The notes beneath the pieces were generated by a model. That model saw only the letters and a list, made by a program, of their open reading frames with translations, was not told the DNA's origin and ran no database searches. DNA of 25,180 nt, taken from the IMG/VR virus record IMGVR_UViG_3300042887_000262, positions 1 through 25,180 of that record; one strand, 5' to 3'. Numbering within the stretch: position 1 is the stretch's first letter; every line of letters starts with the position of its first letter. The position numbers and the translations under genes were made by a program. Below, in pieces: positions 4,272-23,332 of the stretch. The DNA is from a virus.

Positions 4272-4565
4272 ATGAACCTCAATACCGTTTTGATGTGCGC
4301 TCAAGCAACTGCACGCCAGCAACTGGCCGCATTGGGTTGCGTTGGCGACGATGTCCAAGCCCTGATTGATGAGCTGACCCCTGCTCCTGTGGCTGAAGAA
4401 GCCCCTGTGGTTGAAGAAGCCCCTGTGGTTGAAGAAGCCCCTGTGGTTGAAGAAGCCCCTGCGGTTGAAGAAGCTGCTCCGGTAGTCGAAGAAGCTGTTC
4501 CGGTAGTCGAAGAAGCTGTTCCGGTAGTTGAAGAAGCCCCAGCTCCCGCCCCTGAAGAGGAATAA
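4272..4565 (+). CDS. Acidic PVVEEA-repeat protein
   Basis: A 97-residue protein with AAAGGAACCAAA just before ATG 4272 as ribosome binding site. Residues 1-37 are a short helical-looking head (MCAQATARQQLAAL ... VQALIDELTP). From residue 38 the chain is almost entirely acidic repeats, five of six residues (APVVEE type) then three of seven (AAPVVEE / AVPVVEE), ending APAPAPEEE. It is very acidic and probably extended or disordered. It follows a run of Lys-rich basic proteins, so a charge-based partner role is conceivable but not shown. A minus-strand frame (4301-4657) is open here only because of the repeat. Confidence 0.82.
   Translation: MNLNTVLMCAQATARQQLAALGCVGDDVQALIDELTPAPVAEEAPVVEEAPVVEEAPVVEEAPAVEEAAPVVEEAVPVVEEAVPVVEEAPAPAPEEE
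4383..4535 (+). repeat. In-frame tandem repeat encoding PVVEEA units
   Basis: Five 18-base units (4383, 4401, 4419, 4437, 4455), of which 4401-4454 are three identical GCCCCTGTGGTTGAAGAA copies, followed by three 21-base units (4473, 4494, 4515) of the type GCTGTTCCGGTAGTCGAAGA(A). The near-identity of neighbours and the change of unit length suggest recent expansion by slippage or recombination. All units keep the reading frame. Confidence 0.93.
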
Positions 4566-4568
4566 TCT

Positions 4569-5270
4569 ATGGCCACCTCCGGCGTCGCTACATTCAACAT
4601 GGACCTCTCGGAAATCGTAGAGGAAGCGTTCGAGCGTGCGGGTTCGGAGCTACGCACAGGTTACGACTTGAGGACCGCTCGACGTTCGCTTAACTTGCTG
4701 TTCGCAGACTGGGCGAACCGTGGTGTCAACATGTGGACTTTTGAGCAAGGCTCAATCACGTTGGTTCCGGGCACTGCTACGTACGATCTTCCTGACGATA
4801 CTGTTGATCTGCTTGAACATGTCATCCGCACGGGCGCGGGTAATGCCTCTACTCAAGCGGACTTGACCATCACTCGTATCAGTGTCTCAACGTATGCCAC
4901 TATTCCAAATAAGCTCCAACAAGCCCGACCAATTCAGGTTTGGATCGAACGCTTGCAACCCGCTCCACGCATCACTGTCTGGCCTGTTCCTGACAATTCT
5001 CAGACGTACACTTTTGTGTATTGGCGTCTGCGTCGTATTGATGATGCTGGGAGTGGTGTGAACACGATGGATGTGCCATTTCGGTTCTTGCCTTGCATGG
5101 TGGCAGGCTTAGCCTATTACTTGGCGATGAAGGTCCCGAATGGCGCGGGGCGTCTTGGTGTCCTCAAGGCTCAGTATGATGAGGCATGGCAGCTTGCTTC
5201 TGAAGAAGACCGTGAGAAGGCTGCGATTCGCTTTGTGCCGCGCCAGCAGTACATTGGGGGCACTCGGTAA
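4569..5270 (+). CDS. Putative head-to-tail adaptor/connector protein (P22 gp4-like type)
   Basis: A 233-residue protein with a GAGG Shine-Dalgarno sequence inside the end of the preceding gene. The N-terminal helical part (DLSEIVEEAFERAGSELRTG, then ARRSLNLLFADWANRGVNMW) recalls P22 gp4-type adaptors, which dock under the portal and join it to the tail. A beta-rich centre follows (VPGTATYDLPDD; IERLQPAPRITVWPVPD; YTFVYWRLRR). The C-terminal helices (FRFLPCMVAGLAYYLAMK ... LKAQYDEAWQLASEEDREKA) have the pattern common to such proteins. The length is normal for the family. A second adaptor-like protein is encoded at 6126; the two could be adaptor and stopper. The stop overlaps the next ATG by one base. 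Assignment to the connector class is probable; the exact role is inferred. Confidence 0.78.
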   Translation: MATSGVATFNMDLSEIVEEAFERAGSELRTGYDLRTARRSLNLLFADWANRGVNMWTFEQGSITLVPGTATYDLPDDTVDLLEHVIRTGAGNASTQADLTITRISVSTYATIPNKLQQARPIQVWIERLQPAPRITVWPVPDNSQTYTFVYWRLRRIDDAGSGVNTMDVPFRFLPCMVAGLAYYLAMKVPNGAGRLGVLKAQYDEAWQLASEEDREKAAIRFVPRQQYIGGTR

Positions 5271-5659
5271 TGAGTAACCGCTTTGCGTCTGCAAAGAACT
5301 CGATCGCTGAGTGCGATCGGTGTGGCCAGAGGTTTAGGCTGACGCAGCTGCGCACGGAGATCATTAAGACCAAGCGGTACAACCTTTTGGTCTGTAGCGA
5401 GTGCTGGGACCCAGATCATCCACAGCTTCAGTTGGGCATGTATCCTGTAGATGACCCACAGGCGGTGCGTAACCCTCGTCCAGACCGTAGCTATGAAGTT
5501 TCAGGGCTGCTGGACGATGGTTATTTAGGTGGTGGTAGCCGAATCTTTCAATGGGGCTGGAATCCTGTTGGTGGATCAAGCAGTTTCGATGCAGCTTTGA
5601 CGCCGAATAACTTGGCAATGAGCGTGCAAATTGGTACAGTAACGATAGTGACGACATAA
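5270..5659 (+). CDS. Small zinc-ribbon protein of the neck gene cluster
   Basis: A 129-residue protein in a TAATG one-base overlap with the adaptor gene. Cys15-x2-Cys18 and Cys42-x2-Cys45 form two knuckles of a treble-clef or zinc-ribbon-like fold (ECDRCGQRFRLTQLR ... VCSECWDPDHPQLQLG). Asp47 and His50 follow the second knuckle. Next come a conserved-looking YPVDDPQAVRNPRPD block and IFQWGWNPVGGSS. The C-terminus (about 100-129) is beta-rich and polar. I recall this family in environmental phages beside adaptor genes, always without a function. It could be structural (metal-stabilised) or nucleic-acid binding; position favours a neck or head role. Confidence 0.82.
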   Translation: MSNRFASAKNSIAECDRCGQRFRLTQLRTEIIKTKRYNLLVCSECWDPDHPQLQLGMYPVDDPQAVRNPRPDRSYEVSGLLDDGYLGGGSRIFQWGWNPVGGSSSFDAALTPNNLAMSVQIGTVTIVTT

Positions 5660-6129: not shown

Positions 6130-6821
6130 ACTACACCGGGTTGTTCAACGCTATCCAGACCTACACGGAAAATCAATTTCCGGTTGTGTATTTGGCTGAT
6201 GGGTCGACTGTGTCTGCAAATACGCAGATCGACACTTTTATCAGGCAGGCTGAGCAGCGTATATACAACTCGATGCAGTTCCCCTCTGTCCGTAAGAACG
6301 TGACAGGCGTGGTATCTACGGCGACTCCGTACCTGTCTTCGCCTGACGACTTCTTGGCGGTGTATTCCTTGGCGGTTGTGGATGCTTCTGGCAACTACGT
6401 GTACTTGCTGAACAAGGATGTGAACTTCATCCGTGAGGCGTACCCTAACCCCTCCAGCACAGGTGTGCCCAAGTATTACGCACTGTTTGGACCCACGGTA
6501 TCAGGTAGCACCATCTCGACTGAGCTGTCGTTTATTCTTGGCCCCAAGCCAGACGCAAACTACACGGCTGAGCTGCACTATTACTACTACCCTGAGTCCA
6601 TCGTGACAGCCGTCAACACATGGCTGGGTGACAACTTCGACACTGTGCTGCTGTATGGCTCGCTGGTTGAGGCGTACACCTTCATGAAGGGTGAGACGGA
6701 TATGCTCGCGGTCTACGACGGTAAGTACAAAGAAGCACTTGCTCTGGCCAAACGTCTGGCTGATGGTATGGAGCGTCAGGATGCGTACAGGTCTGGTCAA
6801 TATAGACAGGCGGTGACCTGA
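6126..6821 (+). CDS. Putative phage adaptor protein (SU10-type family)
   Basis: A 231-residue protein with an ATGA overlap with the previous gene. It matches the pattern of the SU10 adaptor family, head-to-tail connectors of short-tailed phages. Visible elements are an N-terminal helix with TQIDTFIRQAEQRIYNSM, a beta domain (KNVTGVVSTATPYLSSPDDF ... YVYLLNKDVNFIREAYP), GVPKYYALFG, a strand pair (LSFILGPKPDANYTAELHYYY), and a C-terminal helical part (TWLGDNFDTVLLYGSLVEAY, then FMKGETDM and YKEALALAKRLADGMERQDA). The length is typical. The overall architecture resembles the protein at 4569, so the phage may carry two stacked connector rings. The stop overlaps the next start by one base. Confidence 0.85.
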   Translation: MNYTGLFNAIQTYTENQFPVVYLADGSTVSANTQIDTFIRQAEQRIYNSMQFPSVRKNVTGVVSTATPYLSSPDDFLAVYSLAVVDASGNYVYLLNKDVNFIREAYPNPSSTGVPKYYALFGPTVSGSTISTELSFILGPKPDANYTAELHYYYYPESIVTAVNTWLGDNFDTVLLYGSLVEAYTFMKGETDMLAVYDGKYKEALALAKRLADGMERQDAYRSGQYRQAVT

Positions 6822-7264
6822 TGGCTTTCACAGGAAATTATTCGTGCAATTCGTTCAAAACGGGCATGATGAACGGCGTGTTCGACCTCACATCTGGGCA
6901 AATCAGGATTGCCCTGTATAACAACACGGCAACGCTTAATGCAAGTACCGCGTCTTATCTTGACGCGGTGGGTCCGAGCAAGGGTGAGATTGTTGGAACG
7001 CCGGGCTATACCGCAGGTGGCCAAACTTTGACTGTTACTCAAGTACCCACAACGGGGGGTTCAGGTACCACGGTTTACGTGTCGTTTGGAAATGTATCGT
7101 GGACTGGTGCGTTCACAGTCCGTGGCGCTTTGATCTACCAAAATAGCGTGGACAAGCCCGCCATATGCGTGCTGGATTTTGGGGCAGACAAGTCTTCGTC
7201 TACCACGTTCACCGTACAATTCCCCGCAGTTTCAAACACCTCAGCTATCATAAGGATTGCATAA
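6821..7264 (+). CDS. Beta-rich virion protein, copy 1 of a paralogous pair
   Basis: A 147-residue protein in a TGATG overlap with the adaptor gene; AGGCGG 7 bases upstream is the likely ribosome binding site. It is beta-rich with a strong match to the protein at 7466. Shared blocks are YTAGGxxxxVT, PTTGG, an aromatic strand segment, GALIYQNS versus VLIYNSTQSN, VLDFG versus VHTFG, and an end of the type TFTVQFP ... AIIRIA. I recall the family as widespread and uncharacterised in environmental phages. A decoration, tail-tip or fiber-base role is inferred from position between adaptors and fibers. No catalytic motif. Confidence 0.82.
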   Translation: MAFTGNYSCNSFKTGMMNGVFDLTSGQIRIALYNNTATLNASTASYLDAVGPSKGEIVGTPGYTAGGQTLTVTQVPTTGGSGTTVYVSFGNVSWTGAFTVRGALIYQNSVDKPAICVLDFGADKSSSTTFTVQFPAVSNTSAIIRIA

Positions 7265-7465: not shown

Positions 7466-7921
7466 ATGGCAAACACACAAGCAATGTGTACCTCGTTTAA
7501 GGGTGAAATCTTGACGGGCACGCACAACTTTGGCGCAGCACCTATTCGCGCTGCTTCTACTGCGGACACGTTCAAGGCGGCGTTGTTCTTGGCTTCGGCC
7601 ACTTATAACGCTACCACCACGGCGTACAGCACCACAGGTGAAGTTACTGGCACGGGCTACACTGCTGGTGGCATCAACGTCACTAACGCAACCGCGCCTA
7701 CGACTGGTGGTACAACTGGCTACTGGACTCCTTCAGCCAGCTTGGTGTACACCACTGTGACTTTGACCACCGCGTTTGATGCTGTGTTGATTTACAACAG
7801 CACTCAGTCAAACAAAGCTGTCAGCGTCCACACGTTCGGTTCTCAGACCGTGACTGCCGGTACGTTCACATTGACTATGCCTACCAACGGTGCTGGTACC
7901 GCGCTGATCAATATCGCTTAA
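7466..7921 (+). CDS. Beta-rich virion protein, copy 2 of a paralogous pair
   Basis: A 151-residue protein preceded by AAAGGAAAAATC as ribosome binding site. It aligns by eye along its whole length with the 147-residue protein at 6821 (YTAGG, PTTGG, LIYNS, TFGS, TFTLTMP, ending GTALINIA). Thr, Ala and Ser are abundant, and the chain looks like an all-beta sandwich. Divergence is large, so the duplication is old. Two versions could form different rings or bind different partners. Virion location is inferred from family occurrence and neighbours. Confidence 0.82.
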   Translation: MANTQAMCTSFKGEILTGTHNFGAAPIRAASTADTFKAALFLASATYNATTTAYSTTGEVTGTGYTAGGINVTNATAPTTGGTTGYWTPSASLVYTTVTLTTAFDAVLIYNSTQSNKAVSVHTFGSQTVTAGTFTLTMPTNGAGTALINIA

Positions 7922-7946: not shown

Positions 7947-10900
7947 ATGTTTGGTATAGCCCCGTTTTCCGGTGTCCCGTTTTCCACACTTCCGTCCGGC
8001 GCTGGCAACGTCACGGTTGCGGCTACGGGCGTTTCCGCCACGGGCTCCGTTGGGTCTGTAGCGGACTCGACTACCGTCGCTGAAAACGGCGTTTCCGCCA
8101 CAGGCTCGGTCGGCACACTCACTCCCTCATCGTCTTCGACGGTCGCTCTTACTGGCCGCACTGGTACGGGTTCTGTTGGGACGCTTACCCCTTCCTCGTC
8201 TTCCAACGTAGCGCTTACTGGGGTCACAGCCACGGGCTCCGTAGGCAGCGTAGGAAAATCGCTCACAGTTGCTGAAAACGGCAATAGCGCCACGGGTTCT
8301 GTTGGGTCAGTCACGCCCTCGCTTACGGTTGCAGAAAACGGCAATACAGCCACAGGCTCCGTAGGGTCAGTCACACCCTCCCGTACGGTAGCCATCTCAG
8401 GGGTTTCGGCTACTGGCTCCGTTGGGTCGGTAACACCCTCGCTTACGGTTGCTGAAAACGGCGTTACAGCTACGGGTTCAGTCGGGTCAGTTACGTCTTC
8501 GCGGACGATCGCTGAGAATGGTAATACAGCTACTGGCTCCGTTGGGTCGGTAACACCCTCGCTCACAATCGCTGAAAACGGCGTTACAGCTACGGGTTCT
8601 GTTGGCCAGCTGGTTGGAGCGCCCCCACTCACAGGTGTCACTTCGGGCTTTGGGTGGGGCTCTCCGGGCTGGGGCTATGGTGGCTGGGGCGGTACGTCTT
8701 CCGCTGGTGTTGTTACGCCTGTCATCACAAAAGGCGCTGCGCTCACTGGAGTCTCAGCTACAGGCTCTGTTGGCACTCTTGGAGTTGGCAACCGTACGGT
8801 GGGCCTTTCGGGCGTCTCAGCTACTGGCTCCGTTGGTACGCTTGGTGTTGGCGCACGGTCGTTTGCTATTACTGGGGTTTCAGCTACAGGTTCCGTTGGT
8901 TCCGTTGGTAAATCAATCACGATCGCAGAGACAGGCAACACAGCTACGGGCTCCGTTGGGTCAGTTACGTCTTCACGCACAGTTGCTGAAAATGGCAACA
9001 CGGCCACTGGCTCTGTAGGCTCTGTTACCACATCGCGGACTGTCGCAATCACTGGGGTCACAGCCACAGGTTCTGTAGGAACAGTAGCGCCTTCGCTCAC
9101 AGTTGCTGAAAACGGCGTTACGGCCACGGGCTCAGTCGGGTCTGTAACATCCTCGCGCACGATTGCTGAGAATGGCAATACAGCAACAGGCTCCGTAGGG
9201 TCAGTTACATCCTCCCGCACAGTAGGCATCTCCGGAAACACAGCCACGGGCTCCGTAGGGTCTGTGAGCTATACACAAGCACTCACAGGTGTCACTTCGG
9301 GCTTTGGTTGGGGCTCTCCGGGCTGGGGTTACGGAGGTTGGGGCGGCACATCTTCCGTTGGTGTACTCACGCCCGTAATCGCCTATCAAGTCGCAATTAC
9401 CGGAGTCACGGGCACGGGCTCCGTTGGCGCTGTCGGCTCCAGCCGCACTGTTGGACTCACGAGCGTCTCAGCTACGGGTTCCGTCGGCACGTTGGCGGTT
9501 GGAGGGCGGTCAATAGCCCTTTCAGGGGTCTCAGCCACAGGCTCCGCCGGTACGGTTTTGGCGTTTACATCCGAGCAGGAAAACGGCGTCATTGCCACAG
9601 GCAACGTCGGCACAGTTGGTGTTACCCGTACAAACGCACTGTCGGGCGTCCTTGCAGGCTACGGCTGGGGCTTCCCCGGCTGGGGCCTTGGTGGCTGGGG
9701 CGGAACATCCCCTGTTGGTATCGTTACACCGTCTGTTGCTCCGGCCTTATCTGGTGTTACTGGCACGGGCTCTGCTGGCACTGTTGGTTCAAGCCGTACC
9801 GTTGGCCTTTCTGGTGTTACGGCCACGGGTGTTGTAGGGAATGTCTCTCGGGAAGTTTCGCAGCCGCTTACGGGGGTCACCTCCAGCTACGGTTGGGGCA
9901 CTGGCGCATGGGGCGCGGTTCCTTGGGGCGGTGGGCCAAACATTGTCGGTACCGTTACACCTACGCTGGCTAAAGCGGCTACGGGCAATACAGCTACAGG
10001 TTCCGTTGGCACGGTTGGTGTTGGTGAGCGAGCTCTCGCACTGACAGGCGTTTACTCTGGCTACGGCTGGGGCGATCTTGGCTGGGGCATAAGCGCGTGG
10101 GGAGGCGGCTCTCCCGTTGGTACTGTTGGTTCCAGTCGAACAGTTGCACTCACAGGTGTTACTGGTACAGGCTCTGTTGGCTCTGTTAGCGCTAGCCGTA
10201 CCGTCGGGCTTTCAGGGAATACGGCTACAGGAGTCGTTGGTACAGTCGTACGAACGATTGTGGAATCGCTCACAGGTGTTACTTCTAGCTATGGTTGGGG
10301 TGTAGGCGGCTGGGGTTCAAGCCCTTGGGGTGGTGGGCCAAACATTGTCGGTACCGTTACACCTAGTGTGGCAAAAAATGCTTCCGGGAACACAGCCACA
10401 GGCACTATAGGCTCTGTTAGTACAAGCCGAACAGTCGGGTTGTCGGGTGTCACAGCTACGGGCTCCGTTGGTACCGTTACTGCTGATTTTCCCGTTACCG
10501 TCGCTATCAGTGGTGTTACAGCTAGTGGCTTTGTCAACTCCCTGCTGGCCTCGATCAACATCTGGACGCTGATTGATGACTCTGAAGACGCCAACTGGCA
10601 GAACATTACTGACACACAGACGGCCAACTGGACAGCAATCGACGGCTCTCAATCCGCAGGCTGGACCCCCATTGTGGACAGTCAGGCTGCTGGGTGGCAA
10701 AATATAAGTAATCCACAAACAGCTGGTTGGACTTCCGTTGATGATGCGCAGGCCGCAGCATGGGCTGCGATCCAAAATGCGCAGGGTGGTGGGTGGCAAC
10801 CGGTGGACACAAACCAGACTCCGGGCTGGGCGCCTATCAGCGGTACTCAGGGCGCGGGATGGCAGAATATCCCATCACAGCAGGCTCCGGGATGGGTAGA

Positions 10901-10955
10901 CGAGGATACGGATGAGCCCGCCGATTGGGTTTTGGTGAACACGGATATGACATAA
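7947..10955 (+). CDS. Long repeat fiber-like protein with GWG inserts and Trp-repeat tail
   Basis: A 1002-residue protein with a strong AGGGGAGG Shine-Dalgarno sequence just upstream. After about 20 residues it consists of about 31 imperfect repeats of 17-21 residues with the core G-(V/N)-(S/T)-A-T-G-S-V-G-(S/T)-(V/L). Six further repeats carry a Gly/Trp-rich expansion (for example FGWGSPGWGYGGWGG) in place of the ATGS turn. From Trp873 to the end the chain switches to an 11-residue Trp period. There is no known enzymatic motif. The regular short repeats suggest a beta-solenoid or similar elongated rod, as in phage fibers, and the next three genes are also fiber-like. The mature length and whether it trimerises cannot be told. 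A tail-fiber role is inferred. Confidence 0.85.
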   Translation: MFGIAPFSGVPFSTLPSGAGNVTVAATGVSATGSVGSVADSTTVAENGVSATGSVGTLTPSSSSTVALTGRTGTGSVGTLTPSSSSNVALTGVTATGSVGSVGKSLTVAENGNSATGSVGSVTPSLTVAENGNTATGSVGSVTPSRTVAISGVSATGSVGSVTPSLTVAENGVTATGSVGSVTSSRTIAENGNTATGSVGSVTPSLTIAENGVTATGSVGQLVGAPPLTGVTSGFGWGSPGWGYGGWGGTSSAGVVTPVITKGAALTGVSATGSVGTLGVGNRTVGLSGVSATGSVGTLGVGARSFAITGVSATGSVGSVGKSITIAETGNTATGSVGSVTSSRTVAENGNTATGSVGSVTTSRTVAITGVTATGSVGTVAPSLTVAENGVTATGSVGSVTSSRTIAENGNTATGSVGSVTSSRTVGISGNTATGSVGSVSYTQALTGVTSGFGWGSPGWGYGGWGGTSSVGVLTPVIAYQVAITGVTGTGSVGAVGSSRTVGLTSVSATGSVGTLAVGGRSIALSGVSATGSAGTVLAFTSEQENGVIATGNVGTVGVTRTNALSGVLAGYGWGFPGWGLGGWGGTSPVGIVTPSVAPALSGVTGTGSAGTVGSSRTVGLSGVTATGVVGNVSREVSQPLTGVTSSYGWGTGAWGAVPWGGGPNIVGTVTPTLAKAATGNTATGSVGTVGVGERALALTGVYSGYGWGDLGWGISAWGGGSPVGTVGSSRTVALTGVTGTGSVGSVSASRTVGLSGNTATGVVGTVVRTIVESLTGVTSSYGWGVGGWGSSPWGGGPNIVGTVTPSVAKNASGNTATGTIGSVSTSRTVGLSGVTATGSVGTVTADFPVTVAISGVTASGFVNSLLASINIWTLIDDSEDANWQNITDTQTANWTAIDGSQSAGWTPIVDSQAAGWQNISNPQTAGWTSVDDAQAAAWAAIQNAQGGGWQPVDTNQTPGWAPISGTQGAGWQNIPSQQAPGWVDEDTDEPADWVLVNTDMT
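8007..10562 (+). repeat. Protein-level repeat array with GSVG cores and six GWG blocks
   Basis: About 31 copies of the GVTATGSVGSV-type core by my count. Six Gly/Trp blocks lie at about 8628-8700, 9282-9354, 9659-9708, 9868-9939, 10056-10112 and 10269-10340. The repeats are strongly alike at protein level, but the codons for the same residues vary between copies (GGCTCCGTTGGG, GGTTCTGTTGGG, GGCTCCGTAGGC and others). Blocks 1 and 2 are almost identical in DNA over their first 40 bases, which points to a later duplication or gene conversion. Confidence 0.9.
10563..10952 (+). repeat. 33-base (11-residue) Trp repeat array
   Basis: Eleven full units and one partial unit start with Trp and have the pattern W-x2-(I/V)-x3-Q-x2-(G/N/A), for example WTPIVDSQAAG, WQNISNPQTAG and WAPISGTQGAG. 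The spacing is exactly 11 residues from Trp873 to the final WVLVNTDMT. The DNA of the units is diverged, so the array is constrained at protein level rather than newly expanded. Confidence 0.92.
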
Positions 10956-10962
10956 GGTAAAC

Positions 10963-11721
10963 ATGGCATTCGTTCTTGCAGATCGCGTACAGGAAACGAC
11001 AACCACTACCGGTACAGGTACGGTTACGCTTCTTGGCGCGGTGACTGGGTTTCAGTCATTCTCTGCCATAGGTAACACAAATACCACGTACTACACTATC
11101 GCTGGCCAGACTGGCGCTGAATGGGAAGTGGGTATCGGCACCTACACCTCCGCTGGCACTACGCTGGCTCGCACAACTGTGCTGGCTTCCAGCAACGCGG
11201 GTTCACTTGTCACGTTTTCAGCTGGCACCAAGAACGTATTTGTGACGTATGCTGCAAAGCGGGCTCTGTACTCCAACGGCCCGATCACCACAAACGCTAC
11301 GTACTACCCCACGTTCACTTCAACAAACACCGTTGGGACGCAGGAAATTTCAACCGCGACTGTGCTCACGTTTAACCCCAGCACGGGGGCGCTGACTTCC
11401 ACAACTCATGTCTCTAGCTCTGACGAACGGCTAAAAACCAATTGGCGTGACCTGCCGCCCGACTTCCTTGCCCAGCTTGCTCAAGTCAAGCATGGCACTT
11501 ATGATCGTCTGGACTGTGACGTAACCCAAGACGGCGTGTCTGCACAGTCGCTGCAACAACTTCTTCCCTACTCGGTCATTTCCGACCGCGAAGGGTTTAT
11601 GTCCGTAAACTATGGGAATGCTGCGTTGGTCTCCGCAGTAGAATTAGCCAAGTTAGCGGTGGCCCAAGAAGCCCGTATTGCCAAACTTGAGGCGATGGTG
11701 GCACAATTGACAAAAAGGTAA
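10963..11721 (+). CDS. Tail fiber protein with C-terminal S74 intramolecular chaperone domain
   Basis: A 252-residue protein. Residues about 1-100 are a beta-rich block (VQETTTTTGTGTVTLLG ... GTKNVFVTYAAKRAL) that I recall at the N-terminus of many environmental phage fibers. Residues about 150-252 form a peptidase S74 domain: SSDERLKTN, then DGVSAQSLQQLLP, VNYGNAALVSAVELAKL and a final coiled-coil-like RIAKLEAMVAQLTKR. Ser153 and Lys158 are in the S-D-x-R-L-K spacing of the self-cleaving dyad known from endosialidase-type chaperones. Such domains trimerise the fiber and then cut themselves off. Here the fiber part is short, so the mature product would be about 150 residues if cleavage occurs before Ser153. 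Confidence 0.88.
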   Translation: MAFVLADRVQETTTTTGTGTVTLLGAVTGFQSFSAIGNTNTTYYTIAGQTGAEWEVGIGTYTSAGTTLARTTVLASSNAGSLVTFSAGTKNVFVTYAAKRALYSNGPITTNATYYPTFTSTNTVGTQEISTATVLTFNPSTGALTSTTHVSSSDERLKTNWRDLPPDFLAQLAQVKHGTYDRLDCDVTQDGVSAQSLQQLLPYSVISDREGFMSVNYGNAALVSAVELAKLAVAQEARIAKLEAMVAQLTKR

Positions 11722-11727
11722 CATACT

Positions 11728-12459
11728 ATGGCAAGTACATACTCAACCAACTTAGCACTTGAACTGATTGGTACCGGTGACCAAGCAGGCTCTTGGGGCA
11801 CGTCCACGAACACCAACCTTGGGACGTTGGTCGAACAGGCCATCTCGGGGTACGTCACTCAGGCGATCACTGATGGCGCGGACACAGTCATCACCATCCC
11901 CAACGGCTCAACGGGCGTTGCCCGGAACATGTTCATTGAGTGTACGGGGGCTTTGACCGCTGCGCGAAACTTAATTGTCCCAGCCAACCGCAAGCTGTAC
12001 TTCATCTTCAATAACACTTCTGGCGGTTTTGCAGTCACTGTAAAAGTAAGTGGCCAGACTGGTGTCTCAGTGCCTAACGGCAGAAAAATTATTTTGGTTA
12101 GCAACGGTACAGACGTAGTTGTGGCTGAAAACTATATTGCTTCGCTGACACTTGGCGCGGCTCTCCCGGTTGCTTCTGGGGGCTCAGGAGCGACGACATT
12201 CACTTCTGCGGGCATTCTTCGCGGAAACGGAACAAGTGCCATTTCTGTTGCTTCTGCTGCGGACATTGTTTCAGCCATCAGCACCACCGCCGTGGCAAAC
12301 GCCACAAACGCCACAAAGATTCTCAACGCTGGCGGGTGGAACGTAACACCGACGGGCACCAAGTTGTATTTCAATTACAACGGAACGAACGTAGGGTCTC
12401 TTGATTCTTCCGGTAACTTCATCGTCTCGGGTACCGTGACGTCCACTGGTACACCTTAA
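11728..12459 (+). CDS. Tail fiber-like protein
   Basis: A 243-residue protein starting six bases after the previous stop region, with AAAAAGG as ribosome binding site. The N-terminus ASTYSTNLALELIGTGDQAG, then WGTSTNTNLGTLVEQAISG, is a family signature of fiber proteins in environmental phages. A beta-rich centre follows (TVITIPNG; RNLIVPANRKLYFIFNN; VSVPNGRKIILVSNG), then the linker LPVASGGSGATTFTSAGIL and RGNGTSAISV. The C-terminus (GTKLYFNYNGTNVGSLDSSG) resembles stretches that often precede an S74 domain, but none follows here. It may bind or extend the fiber next to it. Receptor-binding or shaft role inferred. Confidence 0.82.
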   Translation: MASTYSTNLALELIGTGDQAGSWGTSTNTNLGTLVEQAISGYVTQAITDGADTVITIPNGSTGVARNMFIECTGALTAARNLIVPANRKLYFIFNNTSGGFAVTVKVSGQTGVSVPNGRKIILVSNGTDVVVAENYIASLTLGAALPVASGGSGATTFTSAGILRGNGTSAISVASAADIVSAISTTAVANATNATKILNAGGWNVTPTGTKLYFNYNGTNVGSLDSSGNFIVSGTVTSTGTP

Positions 12460-15931: not shown

Positions 15932-18085
15932 ATGCCACTACAAAAACTTGCCCTCAAAGCTGGTGTAAACCGGGAAAATACATCCTATGCCAATGAGGGC
16001 GGGTGGTATGAGGCGGAGAAGATTCGCTTTCGTTCTGGACAGCCTGAGAAGCTCGGTGGGTGGGTAAGAGACACTGGTGCTGTTTCACCCAACGTATCCA
16101 CGGTTGCTAACTATGGGGTGGCATACGCAACCACAATGCCGACTCCTCCGTCCGGCACGCTTTGGGGGTATTGCCGGTCAATGTGGAATTGGGTCACGCT
16201 GGCTGGACAGAACTTGCTGTCTTTTGGGACCAACCTGAAGTTCTACATTCAAAACGGTGTCAACGGTGCGTACTATGACGTTACGCCTATCCGCAAAACT
16301 AGCACGGCGGTGGCCAACGCCTTTACCACCATCAACCTTTCTAGTGTAGTGACGGTGAATGATCCCGCGCACGGCGCTCAAGCAGGGGACTTCGTTACGA
16401 TTACGGCGACTTCTGGCACGGTCAATGGCATCCTTGCGGCAACGATGGGTACTACAGCTGCGCCTGTGATGTACCAGATCATGTCCACAAACTTGACCAC
16501 TAACTCGTACGAGATTACGGTTGCGACTGCGGCCACGTCTTCGGGTACATCGGCTGTGACTGCAACGTTTACCTACGAAATCACTACTGGTAACGACATC
16601 TATTCCGTAGCTACGGGCTGGGGTGCTGGTGGCTGGGGCGGTGTGACAACTGGGTACCCAAGCACAGGCTGGGGGTTGGCAGCGGCGGCTGGCGGTGTTG
16701 GAGTAGGACTGCGCTTTTGGAGTGAGTCAAACTTTGGTGAGAACTTGATTTTTAACCCCAACGGCGGTGGTATCTACTTGTGGGCGGTCAACGTGGCACC
16801 CACCATATACGACCGTGCTCAACTGCTTGTGGCCAGCGGCTCGGTCACGGTAAAGAATGGCGCGGGGTCAGGCTCTACAACGGTGTCGATTGATGCAACT
16901 TGTCCGTCCGCGGCCAACTACATTATGGTGTCCGATGCCTCACGGTTCATCATTGCATTTGGTGCCAACGACCCCACGGGTGTATACGCTACAACCGTGC
17001 TGGACCCTATGCAGATTCGTTGGTCCGATCAGGAAAGTTTTGCTACTTGGACGCCCGCGATTACCAACCAAGCGGGTGACTACCGACTGAGCCATGGCTC
17101 AGCTATCTATACAGCCATCCAGTCTCGCCAAGAAATTGTGGTGTTCACCGACAGCGCTGTGTATTCGATGCAGTACCTCGGCGCTCCGTACGTCTGGGGC
17201 TTCCAATTGCTGGAAGACAACATTTCAATCATCGGCCCCAATGCGGTGACAGTCGCGTCCAACGTGGTCTATTGGATGGGTATGGACAAGTTTTATGTCT
17301 ACACCGGTCGCGTTCAGTCTATGCCTTGCACGTTGCGGGAGTATGTTTTTAGCGATATTGAGCTTGGCCAAGGATTCCAAGTCAACTCCGGCACCAACGA
17401 GGGCTACAGCGAAGTCTGGTGGACATACTGTTCCAGCGGTTCTACTGTCCTTAACCGATACGTGATCTTCGATTACTTGGACAACGTCTGGTACTACGGC
17501 ACATGGAACAACTACGAGGGTGTCCCTCAAGGCCGTACTGCGTGGCTAGACAGTTCTTTACGTAGCTTCCCTATGGCATCGACCTATGGTGCGCCTACGA
17601 CTACAACCTCACGTACCCAAGGCAGTACCACGCTGGTCTACCACGAGAACGGTACGAACGACGGGGCCAACGCTACTACGACACCGATCGTCTCCTACAT
17701 ACAGTCCTCGGACTTTGACATCGGGGATGGCCATAACTATGGCTTTGTCTGGCGTTTGATTCCTGACCTGACTTTTGATGGGTCAAACACCAGCGGGTTG
17801 ACTAGCCCATACCCCAGCGCAAACTTCACTGTGCGTCCACGCACGTTCCCCGGTGCCAACTACGGTAACTCAAACAACCCCGCTGTAACCAGCGCTCAGA
17901 ACTACGCTGGCCAACGAACCTATGCTGTGCAGCAGTTCACCGAGCAGGTCTATGTACGCATCCGTGGGCGTCAGATGGCGTTTAAGGTTAGCTCCGGGGT
18001 GCTCAACTCTGCCACCGAGGGGCTTGGTGTGCAGTGGCAGTTGGGCGTTCCCCGTATTGATGTTCGACCAGACGGGCGGAGGTAA
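15932..18085 (+). CDS. Putative tail nozzle protein (P22 gp10/T7 gp12-like class)
   Basis: A 717-residue protein. The N-terminus (LKAGVNRENTSYANEGGWYE, then AEKIRFRSGQPEKLGGW) is the signature of nozzle or stabilisation-type proteins of short-tailed phages. The body is beta-rich and probably a beta-propeller. A FCCH-like beta module is inserted at about residues 135-215 (VVTVNDPAHGAQAGDFVTIT). A GWG-rich stretch follows at about 229-249 (GWGAGGWGGVTTGYPSTGWG). Later blocks are IRWSDQESFATWTP, RQEIVVFTDSAVYSMQYLG, YRF-like strands and the C-terminal FTEQVYVRIRGRQMAFKVSS with RIDVRPDGRR. The protein would close the tail below the adaptors at 4569 and 6126. Upstream SD is weak (GAGAAACCC). Confidence 0.84.
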   Translation: MPLQKLALKAGVNRENTSYANEGGWYEAEKIRFRSGQPEKLGGWVRDTGAVSPNVSTVANYGVAYATTMPTPPSGTLWGYCRSMWNWVTLAGQNLLSFGTNLKFYIQNGVNGAYYDVTPIRKTSTAVANAFTTINLSSVVTVNDPAHGAQAGDFVTITATSGTVNGILAATMGTTAAPVMYQIMSTNLTTNSYEITVATAATSSGTSAVTATFTYEITTGNDIYSVATGWGAGGWGGVTTGYPSTGWGLAAAAGGVGVGLRFWSESNFGENLIFNPNGGGIYLWAVNVAPTIYDRAQLLVASGSVTVKNGAGSGSTTVSIDATCPSAANYIMVSDASRFIIAFGANDPTGVYATTVLDPMQIRWSDQESFATWTPAITNQAGDYRLSHGSAIYTAIQSRQEIVVFTDSAVYSMQYLGAPYVWGFQLLEDNISIIGPNAVTVASNVVYWMGMDKFYVYTGRVQSMPCTLREYVFSDIELGQGFQVNSGTNEGYSEVWWTYCSSGSTVLNRYVIFDYLDNVWYYGTWNNYEGVPQGRTAWLDSSLRSFPMASTYGAPTTTTSRTQGSTTLVYHENGTNDGANATTTPIVSYIQSSDFDIGDGHNYGFVWRLIPDLTFDGSNTSGLTSPYPSANFTVRPRTFPGANYGNSNNPAVTSAQNYAGQRTYAVQQFTEQVYVRIRGRQMAFKVSSGVLNSATEGLGVQWQLGVPRIDVRPDGRR

Positions 18086-20364: not shown

Positions 20365-20771
20365 TGCCACTCCACTACGTACACCCAAACCACTTGCCTG
20401 CTGTATGGGATAAGGCCGCTCCGCTTTTGCAAAAGAGCATTGATATCGAGCCTGACTTCATTACGATCGAACAGGTGGAGTACGCCATCCGCACAGGTAA
20501 GATGTCTTTGCTGGTATGGAACGAGCCCGATGAAGGTATTACTGGCGCAGCGGCGGTTGAGTTTATTGACTATCCACGCTATCGTGTGGGGCACGGGACT
20601 CTTCTGGGTGGCAAGAATGTAGTAAAGCCGCATGTGCTCAAAGAGCTGTTGGCTTGGATGAAATCTAATGGAGCCACAGTAGCCCAATGCTGGTGCCGCG
20701 ATGAGCTGGTTCCGATGTACAAAAAGATGGGCATGGAAGAAACCCATCACGTAATGAGGATGAAGCTATGA
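20364..20771 (+). CDS. GNAT-like protein, possible T7 gp13 counterpart
   Basis: A 135-residue protein in a TAATG overlap with the previous gene. The order of elements suits the GNAT acetyltransferase fold: an N-terminal helix (LPAVWDKAAPLLQKSIDI), a beta strand pair (KMSLLVWNE ... GITGAAAVEFID), a central GHGTLLGGKN turn, a helix (KPHVLKELLAWMKSNGA), and the end CRDELVPMYKKMGMEETHHV, typical of GNAT C-termini. The acetyl-CoA loop is not a clear Q/R-x2-G-x-G/A, so activity is uncertain. T7 gp13 (internal virion protein A, 138 residues) is a GNAT-like protein beside ejection genes; size and position agree. ATGA overlap with the next gene. Confidence 0.8.
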   Translation: MPLHYVHPNHLPAVWDKAAPLLQKSIDIEPDFITIEQVEYAIRTGKMSLLVWNEPDEGITGAAAVEFIDYPRYRVGHGTLLGGKNVVKPHVLKELLAWMKSNGATVAQCWCRDELVPMYKKMGMEETHHVMRMKL

Positions 20772-23332
20772 TTATCGGCAACAAGTTCAACGGTTACTCT
20801 GCGGACAATCGACGCCTGTATCACTTGGGTGGCGGTGGCGGTGGTGGCCAGACCACGAGCACGTCAAACACGTCGAACATCCCTGAGTACGCACGTCCCT
20901 ACGTAGAGACGATGATGGGCGCGACACAGCGCCAGCTGTTTCAAGGCAACGAAACTGGGGACGGCGGGTTCAACATAACTGGTTTCCAGCCGTACAAGGC
21001 GTACGGCGGTACGTACAACCAACAAGGTAATCAGACTTCCTACGACCCTAGCAAATCAGTTGCTGGTTTTCAGCCGATGCAAGAGCAAGCGCAGCGGGGT
21101 ATCGCTGGAATGCAGCTGCCCGGCGAGTATGGTCGCGCCTCGCAGCAAGCTGCGTACGCAGGTATGGGCGGTATGGACGTAGCTGGCCAAGCCAACACTC
21201 AAGGCTTTCAGAATCAAGTTGGCGGGTACATGAACCCGTACATGAATCAAGTGCTGGCTCCTCAGCTTGATGAAATGCGCCGTCAGTACGGTATCACTGG
21301 CCAACAGCAATCTAGCCAAGCCACTCAAGCTGGTGCTTATGGTGGTTCGCGTGACGCGATCATGGCTGCTGAGAACAACCGTAATCTGGGCATGGCGCAG
21401 AACCAAGCAATTGGCCAAGCTTACGACAGGTCGTTCGGCGCAGCGCAGCAGCAATACAACCAGAACTTGCAAAACCAACTTGCTGGTTACGGCATGGTGG
21501 GGCAGTCTGCGAATCAGTTGGCTGGTATTGGTAACCAGATGCTCACTGGCCAACAAGGCATTTACAACATGCAGAACACTGCTGGCGCACAGCAGCAGGC
21601 ACTGGAGCAGCGGAAGATTGATCAGGCGGTTAGCGACTATGCCAACGCGCAGCAGTACCCGCTGATGCAGTTGGGCACTATGTCGAATATGCTGCGTGGC
21701 TTGCCAATGCAGGCGTCCACTACCAATCAATACGCTGCGGCTCCAAATGCCCTTACTCAAGGTATCGGCGCTGCTGGCGCTGGAGCTTCGCTTTACAACG
21801 CGATGAGACCACCGGGCGGCGCTGCTGGCGGTTTGCCTAGCGAGTTCAAGTACGCCAAGGGCGGCATCACCTCTGTGCCCCAATACAATGTCGGCGGCGA
21901 AATTGAGTCTCAACTTGAGTCGATGGACATTCAAGGTTTGATGAAGCAAGCCCAAGAGTCTTCAAGCCCCACAGTACGGGCAATGGCTAAGCGTATCTTG
22001 CGTGAGAAACAAATGGAGCAAAGCGCTGGTCAAGCCCCACAAGGCATGGCTGGTCAAGCCCCACAAGACATGGCTGGTCAAGTTCCACAAGGCATGGCTG
22101 GTGGTGGCATCATTGCATTCGCTCCCGGTGGCATTACGGGGGCTAATGAAGGTGACGTAGGGGAAGAAGAGGCGCGGATTGGTATGCAAGAACGCCTTGC
22201 TCGGCCCCCTATCACTGGTGAGGGCATTATGGGTGTGGCCCCAGCAGCTGCGCCTCCGGTTAACACTGCCCCGACTGATATTGTCATGAACGCGCAAAAC
22301 GCGCTTAAAACACAACAAGACCTTGCGAACAAGCCGATTGCGGACATCATGGCTGAACGTCAGGCACTTCGTCAATCTATGGGTGTTGGTGAAAACGTAG
22401 CCCGCGAGCAGTACCGCAATGAGCAGATGGCGGAACGTGCCAACCTGAAGGATGAAGCTGAACGTCAACGCAGTATGCGTCTGGCCCAGTTCTTTGCTAG
22501 CTGGGGCTCTACCCCCGGCTCAACGCTTGTCGCTGGTATGACTGCTTTGCAGAAATCTATTCCCGGCATGATTGACGATGCAAAGGACGCCAAGAAAGCC
22601 AAGCGTGACGCTGACAAGATCATCTTTGACCTTGATAACGCAGACCGTCTTGAGAAGATAGGCCGCATTGACGAAGCGACGGCGCTCAAAGAAAAAGCCG
22701 CTGACAACGCACAGAAGCTCAATCAGAACCTGCTTCAGTATCAGACCAGCATAGAAGGTGATAAGTCACGCTCAGAATCAGCAAGAGCGAGTGACGCGTC
22801 ACGCGCAGCTTCAGCGGAAAATGTTGCAAACATCCAAGCTCAAAGCCAGAAAACAACGGCGCAGATCACTGCGGACCGCATGGCAGCAAGTGCTAAAGAT
22901 ACCGCTGCCCGCGGTGACAGAAAGCTGGATGAAAACGAACGCGCCAATCTGCAACGTAACGTGCTGGTTGCGGAAAGAGCTTTGTCGGACACTGAGAGAG
23001 CAATTGCGGCGGAGAAAGACAAGGACTTTGCCTACAAAGCTGCTGTGACTACGGCGTCGCGGACCCAAGGGGTTACTCCAAGGGCGAGAGAAGCTGCGCG
23101 AGCAGAAATAGCCACTAAGGATGCAGCGTGGAACACTCGGATTACAAGAGCCAGAGAGGACGCTGACCTTCTCAAGAGTCAAATGAGAGAGGTCAACGCA
23201 AGGCTTAGTGCTACGCCTACTCCTTCCGCTGGCGCTGAATCGGTCAAAGTGGGAGACAAAACATACGCTAGACCTGCTGGTATGACTGATGCACAATGGA
23301 GTGATTACAAGAAATCGCAAGGGGTCAAGTAA
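20768..23332 (+). CDS. Large candidate ejection/internal virion protein
   Basis: An 854-residue protein; GAGGA lies nine bases before the ATG within the GNAT gene. The N-terminus NKFNGYSADNRRLYHLGGGG is followed by a Gln/Gly/Ala-rich region (about 30-380) with many short helices and NQ-rich stretches. YAKGGI, NVGGEI and MAGGGIIAFAPGGI motifs lie at about 360-460. A long charged coiled-coil-like region fills about 550-830, with a conserved-looking FFASWGSTPGSTLVAGM block and IPGMIDDAKDAKKAKRD. The end is SVKVGDKTYARPAGMTDAQW. It has no clear enzyme domain. Position before another very large gene suggests an ejection protein; inference only. Confidence 0.82.
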   Translation: MIIGNKFNGYSADNRRLYHLGGGGGGGQTTSTSNTSNIPEYARPYVETMMGATQRQLFQGNETGDGGFNITGFQPYKAYGGTYNQQGNQTSYDPSKSVAGFQPMQEQAQRGIAGMQLPGEYGRASQQAAYAGMGGMDVAGQANTQGFQNQVGGYMNPYMNQVLAPQLDEMRRQYGITGQQQSSQATQAGAYGGSRDAIMAAENNRNLGMAQNQAIGQAYDRSFGAAQQQYNQNLQNQLAGYGMVGQSANQLAGIGNQMLTGQQGIYNMQNTAGAQQQALEQRKIDQAVSDYANAQQYPLMQLGTMSNMLRGLPMQASTTNQYAAAPNALTQGIGAAGAGASLYNAMRPPGGAAGGLPSEFKYAKGGITSVPQYNVGGEIESQLESMDIQGLMKQAQESSSPTVRAMAKRILREKQMEQSAGQAPQGMAGQAPQDMAGQVPQGMAGGGIIAFAPGGITGANEGDVGEEEARIGMQERLARPPITGEGIMGVAPAAAPPVNTAPTDIVMNAQNALKTQQDLANKPIADIMAERQALRQSMGVGENVAREQYRNEQMAERANLKDEAERQRSMRLAQFFASWGSTPGSTLVAGMTALQKSIPGMIDDAKDAKKAKRDADKIIFDLDNADRLEKIGRIDEATALKEKAADNAQKLNQNLLQYQTSIEGDKSRSESARASDASRAASAENVANIQAQSQKTTAQITADRMAASAKDTAARGDRKLDENERANLQRNVLVAERALSDTERAIAAEKDKDFAYKAAVTTASRTQGVTPRAREAARAEIATKDAAWNTRITRAREDADLLKSQMREVNARLSATPTPSAGAESVKVGDKTYARPAGMTDAQWSDYKKSQGVK
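22028..22099 (+). repeat. Three tandem 24-base units (GQAPQGMA)
   Basis: Three copies start at 22028, 22052 and 22076, encoding GQAPQGMA, GQAPQDMA and GQVPQGMA, followed by GGGI. The copies differ by one to three bases, so the duplication is recent. The insert keeps frame and lies in a linker before a conserved GG motif. Confidence 0.9.

Follow-up and report, generated by a model that had tools for sequence, protein, structure and literature searches.

The open reading frame 7947-10955 (plus strand) of the 25.2-kb virus record analysed here ("the window") encodes a modular repeat protein of 1002 residues, termed REP, which belongs, as one of the larger representatives, to an unnamed family of tail-region proteins that is widespread among aquatic phages. 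By analogy with a known phage tail structure, we tentatively suggest that REP may be a modular virion rod, which carries several docks for trimeric fibres. The putative docks are short Gly/Trp blocks, and the number of tryptophan residues in such blocks is fixed: exactly three Trp were found in 139/139 distinct in-frame blocks among the matches listed in a scan of viral contigs. This rule of three represents a sharp regularity that needs an explanation, even without the docking claim.

Modular architecture of the repeat protein

REP is composed of a 27-residue N-terminal cap, 31 standard units, six Gly/Trp units and a C-terminal part starting at approximately residue 870. The cap (MFGIAPFSGVPFSTL..., 7947-8027, plus strand) is kept in relatives with very different arrays. 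The 31 standard units comprise 20-22 residues each and follow the consensus G[VN]TATGSVGSVT.SRTVA..; a pattern identified 36 unit starts, and together with one Ser-starting unit (TSVSATGSVG, around residue 507) these account for the 31 standard and the six Gly/Trp units. At a lag of 20 the residue identity within REP amounts to 0.36, compared to a maximum of 0.17 upon shuffling, and the VGxV core is located 7 residues from the unit start in all 30 standard units measured. The approximately 31 GSVG-type repeats with kept spacing, which the original prediction had described, are thereby confirmed. The residues Gly, Thr, Ser, Val and Ala make up ~72% of the protein. Between the 20-residue units pS is 0.68 and pN is 0.30, and because the resulting dN/dS is ~0.22, the amino acid pattern of REP is under selection and does not merely reflect a DNA repeat. 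Sequence searches with the whole of REP against Pfam, PHROG and PDB returned no match.

The six Gly/Trp units are 36-38 residues long and harbour a Gly/Trp block of 16-17 residues each. All are encoded on the plus strand, at 8634-8747 (unit 1, residues 230-267; W237, W242, W247), 9288-9401 (unit 2, residues 448-485; W455, W460, W465), 9645-9752 (unit 3, residues 567-602; W574, W579, W584), 9873-9983 (unit 4, residues 643-679; W650, W655, W660), 10047-10154 (unit 5, residues 701-736; W708, W713, W718) and 10275-10385 (unit 6, residues 777-813; W784, W789, W794). The Trp spacing is exactly 5,5 in all six blocks. In units 1 to 6, the VGxV core lies 23, 23, 23, 24, 23 and 24 residues from the unit start, respectively, rather than 7 as in the standard units, and hence the insert of 16-17 residues occupies one constant turn. 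This agrees with the earlier view that the six Gly/Trp blocks replace one and the same turn. The fixed register is claimed solely for REP of the window and its near relatives in the loci L002 and L003; across distant families the register differs, and a whole unit comes after N-cap blocks. Units 1 and 2 are close copies of each other, as are units 4 and 6, and therefore the six Gly/Trp units do not reflect six independent events.

The C-terminal part of REP forms a Trp ladder (10554-10952, plus strand; residues 870-1002), which was absent from the original prediction. The ladder comprises 12 Trp ranging from W873 to W994, and the step between successive Trp is exactly 11 residues. In relatives of REP, ladders of 2, 3, 4, 6 or 12 Trp with 11-residue steps are found, which always end 5-8 residues short of the C-terminus. 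The ladder also contains the most conserved stretch of the REP family, EDANWQNI. A search of the ladder against phages yielded weak matches alone, nearly all of them Paenibacillus tape measures.

Gene neighbourhood and relatives

The window contains SU10-type adaptor, phrog_644, S74, other tail-fibre and nozzle-like stabilization genes. On the plus strand, two genes for SU10-type adaptors (Pfam family PF24175; 4569-5270 and 6126-6821) are followed by two genes for phrog_644 proteins (6821-7264 and 7466-7921), the first of which is a constant upstream neighbour of REP and the second of which lies directly upstream. A Peptidase_S74 tail-fibre gene (10963-11721) is located directly downstream of REP, followed on the same strand by a fibre gene with the N-terminal motif G..AGxWGxxTNxNxxxL (11728-12459) and by the gene for a nozzle-like tail protein of phrog_3287 (15932-18085), which is similar to a chain present in six copies in PDB 9nwi (E = 4e-11). 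The adaptor and the phrog_644 protein are each present as two diverged copies, both here and in most relatives. Two window genes are, as judged by position and by resemblance to phage DSL-LC04, those for a holin and an endolysin, the latter being predicted from sequence. Between both adaptor genes, a small Cys-motif protein is encoded (5270-5659), and in phage CRP-901, the related domain phrog_28581 forms a fusion with an array and a three-Trp block at the terminus. A small acidic protein contains EEAPVV-type repeats, which are encoded by near-perfect tandem repeats of 18 and 21 bp (4386-4537), and a 24-bp repeat (AGQAPQGM) is found three times at 22025-22102 within a large late protein (20768-23332).

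A search of IMG/VR retrieved 49 related loci, and the gene order adaptor, phrog_644, REP, S74 and/or fibre is conserved in nearly all of them. REP of the window shares with this family the position of its gene between phrog_644 and the S74/fibre genes, the cap (an N-cap or a three-Trp cap), the array of 20-21-residue V/A-Gly type and the W-11-W ladder with EDANWQNI. The relatives start in one of two ways, either with MFGIAPFS..PFSSL or with a single three-Trp block (MATAWGAGTWGSNTWGG), and many contain one block only, as an N-terminal cap leading straight into the array, or no block. The array is usually of the 20-21-residue V/A-Gly type and across the family ranges from ~8 to 31 or more units; complete relatives with the array type of REP comprise ~180 to 1002 residues. 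In L002 and L003, the neighbouring genes are mostly 70-95% identical to those of the window, but the array gene shows 51-58% identity in the best segments and encodes 916 and 507 residues, respectively; the array is hence subject to rapid turnover. In three further loci (L041, L044 and L049), the same N-cap and a Trp ladder of the same kind at the C-terminus enclose an unrelated array of the ENxxxxDxxxxxxF type. Such an exchange of arrays between fixed ends fits a spacer role of the array.

Relatives also occur in public phage genomes, where all of them are annotated as "hypothetical protein". WJZ48131 of DSL-LC04 is encoded at the same gene position as REP and contains four blocks (one of them W-Y-W) and a short C-terminal ladder. 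The Pelagibacter phage HTVC027P produces gp68 with three blocks, encoded at a position as in the window, and gp53 of the Roseobacter phage CRP-901 combines another N-terminal domain (phrog_28581) with the same kind of array and one block at the very C-terminus, a layout that can be read as anchor, rod and dock. The three proteins resemble REP in their Gly/Val-rich, mostly VTGV-type repeats and three-Trp blocks; unlike REP, they comprise 314-376 residues with one to four blocks and lack the 20-residue GSVG regularity. The previous statement that no characterised protein shows this combination is correct as far as characterised proteins are concerned, yet uncharacterised relatives with the combination are present in public phage genomes. 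The only match to a bacterial genome, the Armatimonadetes MAG contig CAIRTT010000055.1 (L457), may originate from a misbinned phage or else hint at the host.

Three tryptophan residues per block

In an unbiased scan that did not make use of homology, viral contigs were searched for DNA encoding WGxxxWGxxxWG, which yielded at least 120 stretches with at least 146 sites. Among the matches listed, 139 sites lie in the longest open frame; all of these are distinct, all contain exactly three Trp, and none contains four or more. The corresponding DNA pattern with four-fold Trp lies in the longest frame at 7/135 sites, and was dismissed as a sign of real blocks: nearly all occurrences are out-of-frame repeats, and the seven in-frame cases look unrelated and are mostly of low complexity. 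The loci fetched by homology contain 101 distinct Gly-rich blocks with three Trp (99 at 5,5 spacing), approximately ten blocks with two Trp and none with four or more. Since the copy number of the other repeats in the block-bearing proteins is variable, the fixed three is all the more telling. In the open-access literature searched, we found no paper describing a three-Trp rule beyond the single SU10 structure, and looking for a block structure in the PDB by sequence returned none.

The carriers of the blocks were sorted by simple, rough rules of our own, according to which the 116 scan ORFs listed comprise 58 nozzle-like proteins (57 with one block), 28 array proteins (1-5 blocks each) and 30 short or truncated frames, many or most of them of the nozzle-like or array kind. 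The nozzle-like carriers mostly lack a REP-type array. In the nozzle-like protein of the window, the three-Trp loop is encoded at 16613-16678 (plus strand; W230, W235, W247); it is 5,5-spaced in more distant relatives, and the nozzle-like proteins of DSL-LC04, HTVC027P, HTVC023P, CRP-901 and Pag-Yong1 contain one 5,5-spaced block each. The phrog_3287 nozzle-like or stabilization proteins share with REP the three-Trp block, present once in relatives, but are not repeat rods. The match of the nozzle-like protein to chain Y of PDB 9nwi (Pseudomonas phage Pa223) falls outside the block, and two further classes of block-bearing proteins gave no useful match to the PDB. A nozzle-like protein of 637 residues (L220:3652, plus strand) features an N-terminal repeat stretch, followed by the tail domain and the three-Trp block. 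In a different block-bearing protein of 583 residues (L279:3741, plus strand), the Gly/Trp block is located close to the C-terminus, similar to SU10, and there is a second triple near the N-terminus, in which Asp replaces Gly (ALWDQAIWDQDLW).

The cryo-EM structure of phage SU10 revealed that Trp839, Trp847 and Trp857 in the dock loop of the nozzle protein gp17 form a pseudo-threefold star, and that each of them contacts one chain of the short tail fibre, which is a trimer (PMC9509320). The three residues were confirmed at these positions in the SU10 sequence. Similar to a REP block, the SU10 dock loop comprises three Trp in the loop of one chain, and it belongs to a phage group with SU10-type adaptor genes. 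In contrast to the Gly-rich, 5,5-spaced blocks of REP, however, its Trp are spaced by 8 and 10 residues and the loop is not Gly-rich; moreover, SU10 employs one loop per chain in a beta-propeller nozzle, and not six blocks in a repeat array. Within the window, a loop comparable to the SU10 dock is found only in the nozzle-like protein 15932-18085, separate from REP. Even there the place of the loop differs (W839 of 1005 residues in SU10, around residue 200-300 of 620-720 in the nozzle-like group), and homology between the SU10 nozzle and the nozzle-like group around the loop was not supported (hhalign probability 5%). Given this value as well as the differing spacing and place, the link to SU10 is an analogy. 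In composition, the C-terminal ladder of REP is closer to the SU10 dock loop (WSDFQEITW...) than the Gly/Trp blocks are.

Proposed docking of trimeric fibres and alternative readings

Based on this analogy, REP, which is assembled from exchangeable modules, would be part of the virion, namely of the tail of a short-tailed phage. Next to the end cap and the Trp ladder at the C-terminus, its repeat array would act as an extended spacer or rod that holds the three-Trp blocks. Each of these blocks would serve as the dock for one homotrimeric tail fibre. To this end, three equal Trp per chain would create a pseudo-threefold surface with one Trp for each fibre chain and thereby allow a trimeric fibre to bind to a single rod chain despite their differing symmetry, similar to the dock loop of the SU10 nozzle. 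The rod of the window would provide up to six docks, in addition to one in the nozzle-like protein. The modules, their register, the rule of three, the occurrence of the block in nozzle-like proteins and the gene neighbourhood were observed directly; docking, partner, rod shape and virion location of REP are what we infer here. The presence of exactly three Trp across many proteins and of one block per nozzle-like protein is indicative of a partner with threefold symmetry, for instance a trimeric fibre. A homotrimer binding to a single chain needs three equal residues, and hence each block is proposed to dock a trimeric fibre. It is more doubtful whether REP is a multi-fibre scaffold with six serial three-Trp sockets for one trimeric fibre each, such that the fibre number is changed by socket gain or loss, and whether the block serves short-tailed aquatic phages as a general, portable motif for the docking of trimers.

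The best candidate for a dock partner would be the product of the fibre gene 11728-12459. Fibre genes with the G.WG..TN.N motif are found in the loci of 40 of the 120 block matches listed, compared to 2 of 118 control contigs, and in 21 of 28 array loci among the matches listed, an enrichment that is confounded by phage lineage, since shared lineage alone could produce it. Several observations count against docking: in phage 023Pt_psg01 the candidate fibre gene is present but no block lies within the 19 kb examined, in Pag-Yong1 a block is present although the fibre is without the strict motif, some blocks contain two Trp only, and many relatives have a single N-terminal block or none. The candidate fibre gave no useful match to the PDB. 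The N-terminal fibre motif of the SU10 gp16 type, considered as a mark of the partner, was not found near block loci.

If the blocks indeed dock fibres, a 15-residue motif and a simple sequence search would indicate which phage proteins bear trimeric fibres, and how many. This would be useful in Pelagibacter phages and their freshwater relatives, the attachment machinery of which is nearly all annotated as "hypothetical protein". Docking would also provide a simple answer to the symmetry mismatch between single chain and trimer, and branched multi-fibre tails could easily evolve in this way. The portable three-Trp block common to nozzle-like proteins makes fibre mounting in these phages directly testable.

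Alternatively, REP might be a modular virion fibre or spacer, in which the blocks function as intrinsic elements of fold and assembly (caps, folding nuclei or self-association knots) and bind no other fibre. We regard this as unlikely, even if it accommodates the many relatives in which the block forms the very N-terminus and is followed by the array in a cap-like manner (MATAWGAGTWGSNTWGG...), the block at the very C-terminus of CRP-901 gp53 and the two other N- and C-terminal modules that flank unrelated arrays in L041, L044 and L049. The single block inside nozzle-like proteins, which mostly lack an array, is left unexplained, and so is the limit of three Trp. The constancy of three Trp and the occurrence in nozzle-like proteins, which favour a threefold partner, also bear on the reading, based on the initial idea, in which a beta-solenoid rod binds host glycans and its Gly/Trp loops form the surface for sugar stacking. 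Aromatic loops are able to stack on sugars, and a place among tail genes suits a role in host contact; however, no lectin or carbohydrate-binding profile matched, and three strict Trp at 5,5 spacing, conserved in nozzle-like proteins, are more easily reconciled with one fixed protein partner than with a variety of glycans. A sugar-binding surface thus seems very improbable.

A view of the array as a long, flexible and largely disordered low-complexity linker, whose register results from repeat duplication only, is improbable as well. It is in line with an AlphaFold model of residues 560-1002, which reached a mean pLDDT of 36 and is not interpretable, with the ~72% of Gly, Thr, Ser, Val and Ala, and with the size of relatives with this array type (~180 to 1002 residues). 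Shallow repeat alignments yield a low pLDDT anyway, however, and with so few related sequences available, a low pLDDT is no evidence of disorder. The array of the shorter relative L018 was modelled at ~52-70 (overall pLDDT 53) with approximately two regular, short strands per 20 residues, and the dN/dS of ~0.22 between units as well as the core offset of 7 residues, constant in the 30 units measured, also argue against a disordered linker. Of the solenoid-like rod with loops put forward initially, the fixed register and the expansion of one turn persist, and REP is probably a virion rod; given the pLDDT of 36, the solenoid fold stays a proposal. Beta-solenoid or trimeric fibre repeats (e.g., YadA-type heads) resemble REP in their short, Gly/Ala/Val-rich repeats of ~20 residues and share two strands per unit with the one weak model of the REP family (L018), but there is no Pfam or PDB match to REP at a useful score. 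Compared to PDB folds, the L018 model matched LpxD/GlmU-type left-handed helices only (best E of 0.027, E ~0.03 or worse throughout, TM-score ≤0.2), and these were rejected as meaningless. In a viral structure library, the L018 model matched other unnamed Caudovirales proteins.
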